NCBI RefSeq assembly: GCF_001571345.1 | Contig: NZ_BCTP01000033.1 | Location: 1-32,557 of the forward strand | Source of the DNA: Komagataeibacter xylinus NBRC 15237 | Lineage (GTDB): Bacteria > Pseudomonadota > Alphaproteobacteria > Acetobacterales > Acetobacteraceae | Reading direction: 5' to 3' | DNA length: 32,557 nucleotides | Part shown: in pieces, positions 20,740 to 25,469 of the stretch | Layout of the letters: every line of letters starts with the position of its first letter | How positions within the stretch are numbered: the first letter of the stretch is position 1 | Position numbers and translations under genes: made by a program | Notes under the pieces: model-generated | Database searches by the model: none | The model's input: the letters and a program-made list of their open reading frames with translations, nothing else | What the model was told of the DNA's origin: nothing

Positions 20740-22440
20740 ATGGCAGCAAGCACGATTTCCAGCCGGATTGCACAGGGTAGCGGGCGCGCGGTGGCCGATA
20801 CCGTCATCCGTAATGTGCGTCTGTTCGATCTGGTGACGGGGGAGCTGCTGCCAACCGATATCGCCATCTGTGGCGACACGATTGTCGGCACGCTCGACCA
20901 TTACGAGGGCACGAACGTGATCGAGGGCCGGGGCCGCATTGCCGTGCCCGGCTTCATCGATACGCACCTGCATGTCGAATCCTCGCTCATCACGCCCTTC
21001 GAGTTCGATCGCTGCGTGCTGCCCCACGGCGTGACCACCGCCATATGCGACCCGCACGAGATGGCCAACGTGCTCGGCCGCCCGGCGCTGGATTACTTTA
21101 CCGAAGCCGCGCTGCGCACGGTCATGGACCTGCGGGTCAACCTGTCGAGCTGCGTGCCTTCCACCCATCTTGAAACCTCGGGCGCCACGCTGGGGGCCAC
21201 CGACCTGCTGGCCTATCGCGACCACCCCAAGGTGATTGGCCTGGCCGAGTTCATGAACATTCCCGGCGTGCTCAATGGCGACCCGGTCTGTATGGAAAAG
21301 CTGGAAGCCTTTGCCGGTGGCCATATCGACGGCCATGCCCCGCTGCTGCGCGGGCGCAGGCTTAATGGCTACCTCAGTGCGGGCATCACCACCGACCACG
21401 AGGCCACTACGGCTGAAGAGGCGCTGGAAAAAGTGCGCAAGGGCATGATGGTGCTGATCCGCGAAGGTTCGGTGTGCAAGGACCTGCGTGCGCTGGTGCC
21501 GCTGCTCAACCCGGTTACGTCGCCGTTCTTCGCCTTCTGCACCGATGACCGCAACCCGCTGGAAATCGCGCATGAAGGCCATCTGGACTACCTCATCCGC
21601 CTGGCCATCTCGCTCGGCGTCGAGCCGCTGGCCGCCTATCGCAGCGCCTCGCTCAGTGCGGCCAATGCCTTTGGGCTGCGTGACCGGGGCATGATCGCGC
21701 CGGGCAGGCGCGCCGATATCGTGCTGCTTGATGACCTGCGTGAATGCGTTGTGTCGGACGTGATCAGCGCGGGCCGCCTGGTGGATGACGCGCTGTTTGC
21801 CGCCCGTGAGGTCATTCCCCCCGTGGGGCTGGAGAGCATCAGCCTGCCCGCCCCGGTCAGTGCCACGGACATGGAAATAAAGGGCAGCGGCACGCAGCGC
21901 CCCGTGATCGGCCTGCTGCCCGGCCAGATCATCACACCCTTCCTGCATGCCGACCTGCCGGTGGCGGATGGAATCGTGCAGCCTGACGGGGCGCAGGATA
22001 TCGCGCGCATCTGCGTGGTGGCGCGGCATGGGCATAACGACAATATCGGCCGTGGGTTTGTGAAGGGTTTTGGCCTGTCGGGCGGGGCGCTGGCCTCATC
22101 GGTGGGGCATGACAGCCATAATATATGCGTGGTGGGCATGAACGATGCCGACATGGCGCTGGCGGTCAACCATCTGGAAAAGACCGGCGGCGGCTTTGTG
22201 GTGGTGCGCGATGGCGCAGTGGTGGCCGACATGCCGCTGCCCGTGGCCGGGTTGATGAGCGATGCGCCGTTCGAGACCGTGCGCGACCAGCTTGAAGTGC
22301 TGCGTGCCGCCGCCCGCGCCCTGGGCTGCCAGCTTGATGAGCCGTTTCTCCAGCTTGCCTTCCTGCCGCTGCCGGTGATCCCGCACCTCAAGATCACGGA
22401 TTTCGGCATGGTCGATGTCAACCGGATGGAACTGGTCTGA
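20740..22440 (+). CDS. ade: adenine deaminase
   Basis: Adenine deaminase of the amidohydrolase superfamily hydrolyses adenine to hypoxanthine and ammonia. The 566-residue product has [20 protein letters not shown] (metal-binding HxH and Glu), [36 protein letters not shown], and the C-terminal [20 protein letters not shown] and [13 protein letters not shown] segments that mark the Ade family. The start at 20740 has GGGGA 13 bases upstream and fits the promoter at 20694-20702; the ATG at 20701 lies inside that promoter. The gene is divergent from thiC and is followed after 22 bp by the recombinase gene, so it may be the first gene of a four-gene transcript. Confidence 0.93.
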
Positions 22441-22462
22441 TCCGGCCAGGCAGGAAGTGCCC

Positions 22463-23329
22463 ATGATCCCGCCACAGGAAGCTCCCACGCGGGAGGCCAC
22501 GGCCACCCTGCGCGCCTACCGGGCGGACTGGGTGCATTTTACGCAATGGTGCGCGGAACACGCGATTTCCCCCATTCCCGCAGCGCCTGATGGTGTGGCG
22601 GCCTACCTGCGCAGTCTGGGCAGGTTCGCCCCCGCCACCATCCGCCGCCGCCTTGCCGCCATTGGCAAGATGCACCGTTTCAATGGTCTGGCGTGGGATG
22701 TCACGCATCCGCTCATCCGCGCGGCGCTGGCCGAGATGCTGGAGCAGGCCCGCCGCCCCGCGCAGCCCGCCGCCGTGGTCACGCCCGCCATGCTGCGCGC
22801 CATGTCCGAACGCTGCACCGACGGCGTGCGCGGCCTGCGTGATCGCTGCCTGTTGCTGTTCGGCTTCGCGGGCGCGCTGCGCCGTTCGGAACTGGTGGGC
22901 CTGCAGGTGGAAGATGTGCGCCTTACCCCCCAAGCGGTCATGCTGACGGTGCGCGACGGCCATGAGGCCCCAACCATTGCGCTGCCCGTGGCGCAGGAGC
23001 GCGACCTGTGCCCGGCAGCCGCCTTTACGGCATGGCAGCAGGTGGCGCACCGGCAGACCGGGCCGCTGTTCCGTGCCATCTCCAAGGGCGAGCGCGTGGG
23101 CGGGCGGGCGCTGACCCCTTATGCCGTGACCCGCATCCTGCAACGCCGGGCGCTGATGGCCGAAGTGCCACCCGCCACCGTGGCCCGGCTCAGCGCCCAT
23201 GCGTTGCGGGCGGGGTTTATTGTCGAGGCCCTGCGCCACGGCATGGATGCCACGGTTCTTGGCCAGCGCACCCGCTACCGCGATCCGCGCGCCCTGCGCC
23301 CCTATGCCGAACTGCTTGCCCATGACTGA
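22463..23329 (+). CDS. tyrosine-type recombinase with altered catalytic residues
   Basis: The 288-residue product has a SAM-like N-terminal core-binding domain (residues 11-96) and a C-terminal tyrosine-recombinase catalytic domain. Aligned by eye to XerD, Arg140 (GALRRSEL), His246-Arg249 (SAHALRAG) and the nucleophile Tyr281 (LRPYAELL) fall at the expected spacings. The active-site Lys position holds Arg164 and the second His/Trp position holds Tyr272. AGGAAG lies 7 bases before the ATG. It overlaps the next gene by 8 bp. Since it is fused in one transcript with a kleisin-like gene rather than flanked by att sites, a chromosome or plasmid maintenance role is as likely as integration. Confidence 0.85.
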   Translation: MIPPQEAPTREATATLRAYRADWVHFTQWCAEHAISPIPAAPDGVAAYLRSLGRFAPATIRRRLAAIGKMHRFNGLAWDVTHPLIRAALAEMLEQARRPAQPAAVVTPAMLRAMSERCTDGVRGLRDRCLLLFGFAGALRRSELVGLQVEDVRLTPQAVMLTVRDGHEAPTIALPVAQERDLCPAAAFTAWQQVAHRQTGPLFRAISKGERVGGRALTPYAVTRILQRRALMAEVPPATVARLSAHALRAGFIVEALRHGMDATVLGQRTRYRDPRALRPYAELLAHD

Positions 23330-24026
23330 AACCCTGCGCCTGCCCTGGGCCGACCTGCCACCCGCCACCGCCCCGCGCGAGGAAGAAGGTGCCGCCCCGG
23401 CCCGCCGGCCGCCCGCGCGCCGGGGGCGGCGACCGCTTTCCGCCTGGCCCGCGCCTGCAGGGCCACTGCCCTGGCAGGGCTGGCACCTTTTGGTGCATGG
23501 GGCTGATGCGGCCATGACTGCCTTTGCTGCCGAAGCTGCCGGGCCGGGACTGATTCCATGGCCGTTCGATGCGGAGCGCGTGGAGGAAGACATGTTCGCG
23601 CTGGCCATAGGCGCCAACAGGCCCGGTCAGGAACGGGGCGGCCTGTCGGTGGAAGGGTGCCGCATCCTTGCCCGCCAGTTCCGCGCGGCGGCGGAGGCGC
23701 GTCATGCCCGCCTCGCCCTGCGGCCTGATGGCGCCTGCCCGCTGGATTTCAATCGCCTGGTACCCGTGCCGGACCGCATCCTGCACCTTGGCGCGACCCA
23801 CCCCGATGCCCGCGCCTGGCTCATGGCCAACTGGGGCGTGCTGGAAGCCCCTGCCCAGATGGCGCCGCTGCCGGGGCGCAAGGCGGGCAGGCGGCTGCCG
23901 CGCGGGCATCGGGCCGTGGTGTACGGCTTCTTTACCCGTGGCGGCACGCCAGCGCCCGTGGTGCGCCGGATGGAGGAGCACTCCCCCCAACTGACCTTCC
24001 GCCTGACCGGGCGGCCTTTGACATGA
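23322..24026 (+). CDS. unrecognised protein between recombinase and ScpA-like genes
   Basis: The 234-residue product begins with a proline/arginine-rich, probably disordered stretch (about residues 10-45). A mixed domain follows with WQGWHLLVHGADAAMTAF, MFALAIGANRPGQE and PLDFNRLVPVPDRILHLG, then ANWGVLEAPAQMAPLPGRKA. It ends with a positively charged region (GRKAGRRLPRGHRAVVYGFF). There is no signal peptide or membrane helix. It overlaps the recombinase stop by 8 bp and the ScpA-like start by ATGA. I do not recognise a family. By position it could replace ScpB as the partner of the kleisin, or bridge it to the recombinase; both are guesses. Confidence 0.8.
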   Translation: MTETLRLPWADLPPATAPREEEGAAPARRPPARRGRRPLSAWPAPAGPLPWQGWHLLVHGADAAMTAFAAEAAGPGLIPWPFDAERVEEDMFALAIGANRPGQERGGLSVEGCRILARQFRAAAEARHARLALRPDGACPLDFNRLVPVPDRILHLGATHPDARAWLMANWGVLEAPAQMAPLPGRKAGRRLPRGHRAVVYGFFTRGGTPAPVVRRMEEHSPQLTFRLTGRPLT

Positions 24027-24841
24027 CTGGCCAGCCCGACCTGTTCGACCCCGCGCGGCCCGGTCCCGAGCCGGTCATCATGCTTGATGCGTATCAGGGT
24101 GACCTGACGCATCTGGTGCAGTTGGCCCATGCGCGTGAAATTGACCTGACCCGGCTGGATATCGTGGCCCTGATCGACCAGTTGGCCGAGGCCGCGCGGG
24201 CGCATGCTACCCTGCCGCTGGGCATGAAGGCGCAGTGGGTGGTCATGGCATCGGGCCTGCTGCTGCTGCGCTCGCGGCTTTTGCTGCCCGCCGATGATCC
24301 GCGCCAGCAGCAGGCGGCGCAGGAAGCGCAGGACCTGCGCGCGCGCCTGATCGCGGCCGAACAGGCGGTGCAACTGGCCGGATGGCTGGCGGCGCGCGCG
24401 CAACTGGGGCGCGATGTCCATGCCTTTGGCGGTGCGCCGCCTGCCTTGCGTGACGAATCGGCTGCCTGGGAAGTGGACCGGATCGAATTCCTGTGGGGTT
24501 GCCTTGCGGTGTTTGATGGCAACTGGGGCGCCATGCCCGAGCCGACGTTCTTTTACGCCCCGGTGCAGCTTGACCTGTTCTCGGTCGAGGAAGCGCGCGC
24601 GCGGGTGCGTGCCTGCCTGGCCCGTGCGCGCAAACCCGTGCCGCTGGACCGCATGCTGCCCGATTCCGTCCGGCATGGGGCGGAGCAGGGCGCGCGGCGC
24701 GCGGAACAGCGGCGTTCGGCGTGGAGCAGCACGTTCACCGCCTGCCTCGAAATGGTCAAGCAGGGCGAGGCGCTGGCCTATCAGCCCGGCCCCGATGCGC
24801 TGCCCCGCTTTGGCAACGTGGTGCGCGACGGCGCGGCCTGA
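24023..24841 (+). CDS. scpA: ScpA-like segregation/condensation protein (kleisin)
   Basis: ScpA is the kleisin that links the two heads of SMC and, with ScpB, organises and segregates the chromosome. The 272-residue product has the N-terminal ScpA segment (LDAYQGDLTHLVQLAHAREI, then DLTRLDIVALIDQL at about 40-53) and GMKAQWVVMASGLLLLRSRL-LLP (about 67-89). It ends with the winged-helix STFTACLEMVKQGEALAYQ and RFGNVV. The middle is alanine/arginine-rich, as in other kleisins. It overlaps the preceding gene as ATGA. No scpB gene lies after it, which is unusual, since scpA and scpB are normally adjacent. Confidence 0.85.
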   Translation: MTGQPDLFDPARPGPEPVIMLDAYQGDLTHLVQLAHAREIDLTRLDIVALIDQLAEAARAHATLPLGMKAQWVVMASGLLLLRSRLLLPADDPRQQQAAQEAQDLRARLIAAEQAVQLAGWLAARAQLGRDVHAFGGAPPALRDESAAWEVDRIEFLWGCLAVFDGNWGAMPEPTFFYAPVQLDLFSVEEARARVRACLARARKPVPLDRMLPDSVRHGAEQGARRAEQRRSAWSSTFTACLEMVKQGEALAYQPGPDALPRFGNVVRDGAA

Positions 24842-24923: not shown

Positions 24924-25469
24924 AGTAATATGCTGCCGATCGGACTGGCCCGCACGGGTGTGAACGGATTTTTCTCTCATTTTTCTAACACTTTGCTTGA
25001 CTGGATTTATTTTTTGATCAAGCTGGAACAAACGGTTTTTTGTCTGGCTGCCATGCGGGTGAAACACAGCTTCATGGTGGCTTTTTGCCATGACAGAAGT
25101 GGCCTGCAGGGCAGCAGGTTCACATAAAAATATTTCATATAAGATCAGGGTTGATTTCGAGATGTTAATAATGTTTATGGATAAAACGTGATGAATGAAT
25201 GGCTTGGCTTGTCAGGGCAGGATGCATCCAGTGTCCGTGCATTGGCGTATGGACTGCCGGAGGCTACGACTGTCATGCTTTTCCGTTCCGCCGGGAAAGA
25301 GGATTATCGTGCTTCAGGGTCAAGCCGGGGAGAACAAGGCGGATCGCATCAGTCGTTTCGTAGAAATCTGGTCATACTCCCGTAGTCAAATTGGTGAAAT
25401 CAGAACATCCAGAACAAATTCTGTAATAATCCTTCCTAAAAACTATGCCGTTCTGAGTGAGGTATGGGT
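24914..25469. other. long intergenic region upstream of tonB
   Basis: This 556-bp gap is more AT-rich than its surroundings. I see a GCTTGA/TCAAGC inverted repeat with a 17-bp spacer (24995-25023), which includes a TTGACT that could be a -35, and a perfect CAGAA-CAAA-TTCTG dyad at 25410-25423 close to tonB. Short frames at 25188-25385 and 25195-25473 have no convincing ribosome site or protein character. The region is most likely regulatory for the TonB system. Confidence 0.5.

Follow-up and report, generated by a model that had tools for sequence, protein, structure and literature searches.

The stretch of DNA analysed here (32,557 nucleotides of Komagataeibacter xylinus NBRC 15237, contig NZ_BCTP01000033.1; referred to below as the window) carries a trio of genes encoding a Xer-like tyrosine recombinase, a middle protein with a predicted YubB ferredoxin-like fold and a kleisin of the ScpA family (Table 1). 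The recombinase and middle genes overlap by 8 bp (23322-23329), and the middle and kleisin genes by the 4 bp ATGA (24023-24026). Both overlap lengths were identical in all 19 genomes of the genus, in agreement with an earlier note on this DNA which had read the three overlapping genes as one operon. The start of the recombinase was taken at 22463, the same frame having an earlier ATG at 22415.

Table 1. Positions of the trio and its upstream gap in the window, and of recombinase–YubB fusions at other loci
Feature	Positions	Strand	Length	Remarks
Gap between adenine deaminase and recombinase	22441..22462		22 bp	Without dif-like site
Xer-like tyrosine recombinase	22463..23329	+	288 aa	Pfam PF00589 (Phage_integrase)
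Middle protein, predicted YubB ferredoxin-like fold	23322..24026	+	234 aa	AlphaFold model and Foldseek
ScpA-family kleisin	24023..24841	+	272 aa	PF02616 (SMC_ScpA)
Recombinase–YubB fusion, locus L038	5551-6888	-		
Recombinase–YubB fusion, locus L037	5769-7106	+		
Recombinase–YubB fusion, NZ_CP041349.1	47693-49030			Annotated as transposase

The trio was found at one fixed position in 19/19 Komagataeibacter genomes and in four loci of Novacetimonas or Gluconacetobacter entanii. An adenine deaminase gene lies directly upstream in all 19 genomes of the genus, and a TonB-type gene lies downstream in each of the 11 loci with long flanks (seven of Komagataeibacter, three of Novacetimonas and one of G. 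entanii). These shared neighbours indicate a single old position and support the earlier proposal that the trio is old and vertically kept. We term the position chromosomal because five copies of the same genus are located on contigs of 2.9-3.5 Mb and the adenine deaminase gene adjoins in all 19, the window's own contig being only 32.6 kb long. All three genes of the genus-wide copy are under purifying selection, the median ratio of non-synonymous to synonymous substitution rates (dN/dS) over 171 pairs each being 0.25 for the recombinase, 0.18 for the middle gene and 0.24 for the kleisin. The statement of the same note that the trio has the base composition of the chromosome found no support, its G+C content being 71.2%, whereas the window as a whole has 64.9% and the gene upstream 64.2%.

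Screening of 299 Acetobacteraceae genomes detected the middle protein in 72 of them, representing 29 of 102 genera. Among 385 class-wide genomes only three were positive, namely the window's own, one weak match and one of another family, in which the recombinase and middle genes are followed by no kleisin hit within 1.5 kb. The synteny which the note had proposed to follow across Alphaproteobacteria is thus kept in Acetobacteraceae but not in the class at large. The middle gene was further present on 50 plasmid records, all of Acetobacteraceae by genus name and the smallest of 45 kb; 42 of these have the gene at one place and eight at two or three, the search of the plasmid collection covering the middle gene only and the recombinase and kleisin being checked in five records. 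Toxin-antitoxin and rep genes lie near the module in the plasmids examined. At least one further copy of the middle gene, 33-39% identical, was seen in 17 of the 19 genus genomes, on plasmid-sized contigs where an assignment could be made, except in G002, where it is on a 3.5-Mb contig. In Roseomonas mucosa TT14 the gene is found on six plasmids, a 396-kb record listed as linear not being among the hits, and in Acidisoma sp. PAMC 29798 on three plasmids (85-205 kb) and a chromosome-size contig and not on the 13-kb plasmid. Strain FDAARGOS_362 has it on two plasmids and lacks it on those of 128, 63 and 10 kb, an argument against strictly one copy for each replicon. A phage origin of the module was rejected: a relative of the middle protein had no counterpart in 50,697 phage records, and of three pattern stretches in viral contigs none was confirmed.

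The three genes form a conserved unit. Within 118 middle-gene loci, which partly overlap (of the plasmid records L074-L078, two or more repeat other contigs of the set), 104 have recombinase, middle gene and kleisin on the same strand, eight the recombinase only, five the kleisin only and one neither. The corresponding figures for the named loci, the best 80 of 127 found, were 63, 11, five and one; these 80 repeat many contigs of the 118. Of the matches in the 299 family genomes, 80 regions were taken with their flanks, to the exclusion of short fragments and some other matches. Contig ends interrupt several of the partial trios, and L178, scored as kleisin-less, has a kleisin on the opposite strand. 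The three proteins also diverge together. Correlations between their distance matrices were 0.93, 0.90 (recombinase–kleisin) and 0.96 (middle–kleisin) over 67 loci with an intact or a lysine-less recombinase (see below), values as high being reached in 0/999 permutations. More than one ScpA match was obtained in 15 of 120 genomes, 14 of which also have the middle gene; the exception, G091, has an ScpA that is far more typical than in the rest of the family and possibly stems from contamination. Some loci are assigned to other taxa: L190, L200 and L237 are recombinase-middle pairs in metagenome-assembled genomes labelled Rhodocyclaceae, Nevskia and Caulobacteraceae, where mis-binning is possible, and L240 (genome G646), outside the family, has a recombinase and a YubB-fold gene with no kleisin hit, followed by genes which we take to resemble those of DarT and DarG.

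The recombinase of the window matched Phage_integrase with 33.9 bits (Pfam cut-off 27.1) and remained far below the NCBIfam equivalog cut-offs of XerC (51.7 versus 335.15 bits) and XerD (51.2 versus 329.6 bits). Judged by the catalytic set of Xer-type recombinases, R-K-H-R-H-Y, and the roles of its residues, the window protein retains the catalytic Arg, the HxxR box and the Tyr and has lost the Lys of the beta-hairpin, which is absent in 19/19 genus copies; the His of the last box is missing in the window recombinase and six close relatives. Three classes were distinguished in 104 loci. An intact class (50 loci) has R, K, HxxR, H and Y all present. A lysine-less class (27 loci) retains HxxR and Y and comprises the 19 genus copies, four of Novacetimonas or G. 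entanii and four others (one cut), L129 being scored here though its recombinase is cut. In the truncated class (27 loci), the recombinase is without its catalytic C-terminal part. Considering loci of at least 5 kb, a second, full-length recombinase gene, divergent from the operon, accompanies 14 of 20 truncated loci compared with one of 56 others (Fisher p 8e-10, with no correction for kinship). Plasmids of Komagataeibacter carry the truncated recombinase as an in-frame fusion with the YubB-fold middle domain (Table 1).

Alignment of copies residing on different replicons of the same genome revealed a palindrome close to the point where their shared DNA begins. Scanning up to 3 kb upstream of the recombinase, we found such a 28/29-bp site in 56 of 103 loci, compared with 0.017 expected from shuffled sequence; a narrower pattern applied to 700 bp gave 37 of 106 loci versus 0.0. 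In this site, two arms of 11 bp flank a core of 6 or 7 bp, with inner half-sites of the CGAYAA...TTATCG type. Two reports describe dif as two 11-mers around a central 6-8 bp (PMC5357621, PMC2731167), and the upstream site of the module has the anatomy of dif. It lies within 700 bp of the recombinase domain in 41 of the 56 loci and up to 1.9 kb away in the rest. All but one of the 56 loci have a single upstream site, L141 having two, and none was detected inside or after the module genes in the 103-locus scan. The arms of 42 distinct sites remain complementary as their letters vary, arm position 5 being complementary in 41 of them (G-C 16, C-G 16, A-T 8, T-A 1), and a 39-site set was concordant. 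When the sites of co-resident copies with cores of the same length were compared (24 pairs), differences were seen at 22/528 arm positions and at 33/149 core positions. The exact inner pattern occurred at 22 places in eight whole genomes, 15 of them at the module and seven elsewhere, the reversed control giving 2 per strand count.

No dif-like site was detected in the window by a whole-window scan and pattern scans, nor in 11 lysine-less relatives with long flanks by site and palindrome scans, nor within ∼0.6 kb upstream of 19/19 genus copies. Two candidates in the window were discarded: position 25292 is a single hit with two mismatches, at chance level, and the palindrome at 278-291, ATAAAATATTTTAT, fits the bare ATAA-N6-TTAT core and not the full pattern, probably by chance. 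Some dif-like sites lie apart from a complete module. In L274 (1496-1523; contig C2 of genome G013), a perfect dif-like palindrome lies ∼270 bp upstream of a putative rep-like gene, module genes being absent within 1.5 kb; the only module found in G013 is the genus-wide one. Further sites off the module are L280 77-104 (G000 contig C85) and L271 1496-1523 (G248 contig C1), near genes that we take for IS5-type transposases, and L285 (G281 contig C2) has a site and a full-length recombinase of the module family with neither middle nor kleisin gene within 1.5 kb.

The type of site matched the class of recombinase. Intact loci have a site in 35 of 50 cases, 30 with symmetric inner half-sites and five with one mismatched inner position. 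Truncated loci have one in 21 of 26, and in 21/21 of these GACAA faces TTATC, a type seen in 0/35 of the others. Lysine-less loci, which include the window, have a site in 0/27, 19 of these having been scanned over ∼0.6 kb upstream only. Restricting the comparison to loci with at least 2 kb scanned gave 29/43, 15/20 and 0/8, respectively; these counts are uncorrected for kinship, save in a tree-based pair test. On the kleisin tree, lysine loss corresponds to three changes and truncation to five, and the clade of the window copy has as its sister group the modules of genus g112, in which catalysis is intact and a site is present. The simplest reading is that either one catalytic recombinase acts on two like arms, or a catalytic recombinase and a pseudo-recombinase act on two unlike arms.

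The kleisin exceeded the SMC_ScpA cut-off of Pfam narrowly (26.8 versus 24.6 bits) and stayed far below that of the NCBIfam ScpA equivalog (best 37.6 bits, cut-off 315), being 33% identical to the canonical ScpA of its host. Its profile matched the ScpA chains of 3w6j, 4i98 and 3zgx with E-values from 1.8e-20 to 7e-17. The matches to 3w6j and 4i98, which we take to be ScpA-ScpB structures, span profile positions 4 to 152-156 and should include the ScpB-binding stretch. For the C-terminal part, the closest folds were 4i99 and 5h66, complexes of ScpA with the SMC head (E 0.013-0.042, probability 1.00). Judging from these matches to both SMC-contacting parts of ScpA, the kleisin is a putative SMC binder. 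Like ScpA of SMC-ScpAB, it has a recognisable N-terminal SMC-binding region and C-terminal winged helix; unlike ScpA, the module kleisins are linked to a recombinase and not to scpB and form a separate group, 61 of them (thinned from 97) standing apart from 29 canonical ScpA proteins with a support of 100/100. The kleisin of the window (24023-24841) also matched phrog_30628 (E 7e-6; function unknown), so that ScpA-like kleisins may occur in phages.

Of the canonical genes which the note had advised looking for, the host genome has one smc over the cut-off (contig C10), a scpA-scpB pair (C2) and XerC/D-type candidates on C2 and C20, none of them over the XerD cut-off. Two further copies of the middle and ScpA-like genes reside on contigs C63 and C78. 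The absence of ScpB stated in the note is correct for the trio, where no scpB lies beside the kleisin gene; in the genome, the canonical pair on another contig makes ScpB available in trans.

For the middle protein, AlphaFold returned a model of mean pLDDT (predicted local confidence) 84.6. Foldseek comparison with the viral models of BFVD gave five hits (E 2.5e-6 to 4.7e-4), four of them named YubB ferredoxin-like, with TM-scores of only 0.27-0.50; no PDB match was obtained at E<0.001. The model thus places the protein in the YubB ferredoxin-like fold. Nothing matched it in Pfam or NCBIfam at E<=1 or in PHROG or PADLOC, and the window protein found no Pfam family even at E<=10. The likeness to YubB/DUF1281_C (PF18406) is one of fold, seen by Foldseek against viral models. 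Differences are the genetic linkage to a recombinase and a kleisin and the lack of a PF18406 match, as this family was not among the matches of nine middle proteins at E<=10. A PF18406 search of the window's own genome gave no match, the control genomes being equally without one, and a DUF1281_C search of 190 class genomes gave a match in one genome only and none in the controls. Stray Pfam hits among the relatives (Optomotor-blind, E 0.016; YmjE, E 0.012) gave no family placement. An identity with ScpB was discarded, since the protein has no ScpB profile match and a different predicted fold, PF04079 matching the canonical locus only.

Copies of the module appear to be exchanged between replicons. 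The middle proteins of 62 within-genome pairs had a median identity of 88%, 28 pairs being at least 90% and 22 less than 60% identical, and incompatibility-type divergence of co-resident copies was therefore dismissed as a rule. The site is part of the shared DNA in 19 of 20 co-resident pairs. This DNA begins no more than 42 bp from the site in eight pairs and stops no more than 43 bp from the end of the kleisin domain in 11; in six pairs, all of one genome, it reaches ∼1.2 kb back over the divergent recombinase. These limits suggest that the site and the trio move, or are converted, together between replicons.

We consider the chances about even that the trio descends from a replicon-maintenance module of Acetobacteraceae plasmids and is a chromosomal form of it without a site. 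In that module, Xer/dif-like recombination would be combined with a kleisin coupled to the host SMC. The layout of such a module would be a 28/29-bp dif-like site, sometimes toxin-antitoxin genes, and then the genes of the Xer-like recombinase, the YubB-fold protein and the ScpA-family kleisin. In the plasmid modules, both arms would be bound, and replicon dimers resolved, either by the recombinase or by a pair made up of a truncated pseudo-recombinase and a separate catalytic one; the kleisin would couple the recombinase-site complex to the single SMC of the host with the aid of host ScpB, and the YubB-fold protein may serve as linker or regulator. Dimer resolution or plasmid-type maintenance, at which the note had hinted from the pairing of recombinase and kleisin, is by such inference supported. 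As both the lysine and the site are lost in the window, recombination probably is as well, and a DNA-binding, SMC-recruiting or SMC-regulating assembly would remain. With no site, no lysine and strong conservation, we infer that the window copy is most likely a non-recombining, DNA-bound SMC adaptor; alternatively, it may act in trans on orphan sites such as the L274 palindrome. A bolder version is tentative and to us rather doubtful: plasmids would load host SMC at their own dif-like site via a recombinase-held kleisin, SMC, and not FtsK or accessory proteins, serving as topological check, and the vinegar bacteria would have made one copy a chromosomal, recombination-free, ParB-independent SMC recruiter.

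Several observations weigh against a site-bound module coupled to SMC. Recombinase-middle pairs without an adjacent kleisin occur in 8/118 loci and 11/80 (best 80 of 127). The fold matches of the kleisin are weak (E 0.013-0.27), being from rank 4 mainly to unrelated winged helices, and one of the 27 rows in the alignment behind both the profile and the fold matches was the canonical ScpA of the host. Examples had served to define the site pattern before any sites were counted, no site was found in 15/50 intact and 5/26 truncated loci, and the upstream scan of 19 of the 27 lysine-less loci was short, as stated above. Loss of the lysine together with the site agrees in 3/3 independent pairs, too small a number for significance (sign-test p 0.25). 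Replicon fusion would be possible through the cores, which are identical in 12 of the 24 co-resident pairs whose cores have equal length, and two of the seven off-module matches (7/22) are in Komagataeibacter, so that a trans target for the chromosomal copy is possible.

Some of these points suit a plasmid dimer-resolution unit of the ordinary kind, made up of a site and a Xer-like recombinase, with the YubB-fold protein and the kleisin acting on expression or some other process and no coupling of recombination to SMC. Such a unit would explain the features of site and recombinase as well as the pairs lacking an adjacent kleisin. We nevertheless hold it to be unlikely, as the kleisin follows in 104/118 loci, diverges in step with the other two proteins (see the correlations above) and is retained where recombination looks lost, with purifying selection in the genus-wide copy. 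Another explanation is a small mobile cassette, whose recombinase moves the site and trio between replicons with the other genes as cargo. Many co-resident copies are indeed 82-100% alike in different surroundings, their shared DNA is largely confined to the site and trio, and in some plasmids the gene before that of the recombinase encodes a VapC-type toxin. Such a cassette is nonetheless quite improbable, because the single upstream site of 55/56 loci, with none inside or after the genes, leaves no pair of cassette ends, 42/50 plasmid records have the middle gene at a single place, and the position is fixed in 19/19 Komagataeibacter genomes and the four Novacetimonas or G. entanii loci.

The location of relatives on plasmids and the lack of an SMC or ScpB gene beside the kleisin would also fit a decoy, by which a plasmid kleisin competes with ScpA and alters host SMC or blunts an SMC-like defence against plasmids. 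This leaves the recombinase and the site unexplained, as it does the copy in 19/19 genus genomes, and PADLOC gave no match, making the decoy a very remote prospect. We give least credence to the proposal of the earlier note that the middle protein takes the place of ScpB in a condensin subcomplex. The middle gene does adjoin the kleisin gene as scpB adjoins canonical scpA, but the predicted fold is YubB-like, the genome has its own scpA-scpB pair and one smc, and the profile match to 3w6j and 4i98 should cover the ScpB-binding stretch of the kleisin.

Among known systems, XerS-difSL and XerH-difH each pair a single Xer-like recombinase gene with a neighbouring dif-like site, in which two arms surround a core (PMC5357621, PMC2731167). 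The module shares with them one recombinase gene beside a dif-like site, but is often plasmid-borne, has lineage-specific arms, continues with YubB-fold and kleisin genes and is in some lineages split into a pseudo-recombinase and a divergent recombinase. The resolvase systems of large plasmids are similar in having their own recombinase beside a site, with toxin-antitoxin and rep genes nearby in the plasmids examined, and differ from the module by its dedicated kleisin and YubB-fold partner. The F plasmid has a site-specific integrase beside ccdAB and no annotated kleisin in the stretch between 44 and 66 kb. The parts of the module are of known kinds; the combination of recombinase, YubB-fold protein and kleisin was not found described in the open-access literature searched. 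If the coupling is true, site-specific recombination and the loading of SMC, usually regarded as separate systems, would be directly connected at the genetic level, and the module would show how replicons besides the main chromosome can recruit host condensin. The split form, with its truncated recombinase, unlike half-sites and separate catalytic partner, and the site-less chromosomal form are natural separation-of-function variants, making the roles of DNA binding, catalysis and the kleisin directly testable in acetic acid bacteria, which are non-pathogenic.

A few loci showed additional features around the recombinase gene. In Roseomonas plasmids, genes of a VapC-type toxin and a small upstream protein directly precede it (L074 7200-7879, L248 15853-16532), and L098 and L100, close relatives of these loci, have dif-like sites ∼1.9 kb upstream. 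In L144 and L145, both on contig C2 of genome G121, two near-identical stretches of 8.5 kb each contain the module, one of them with broken recombinase and kleisin frames.

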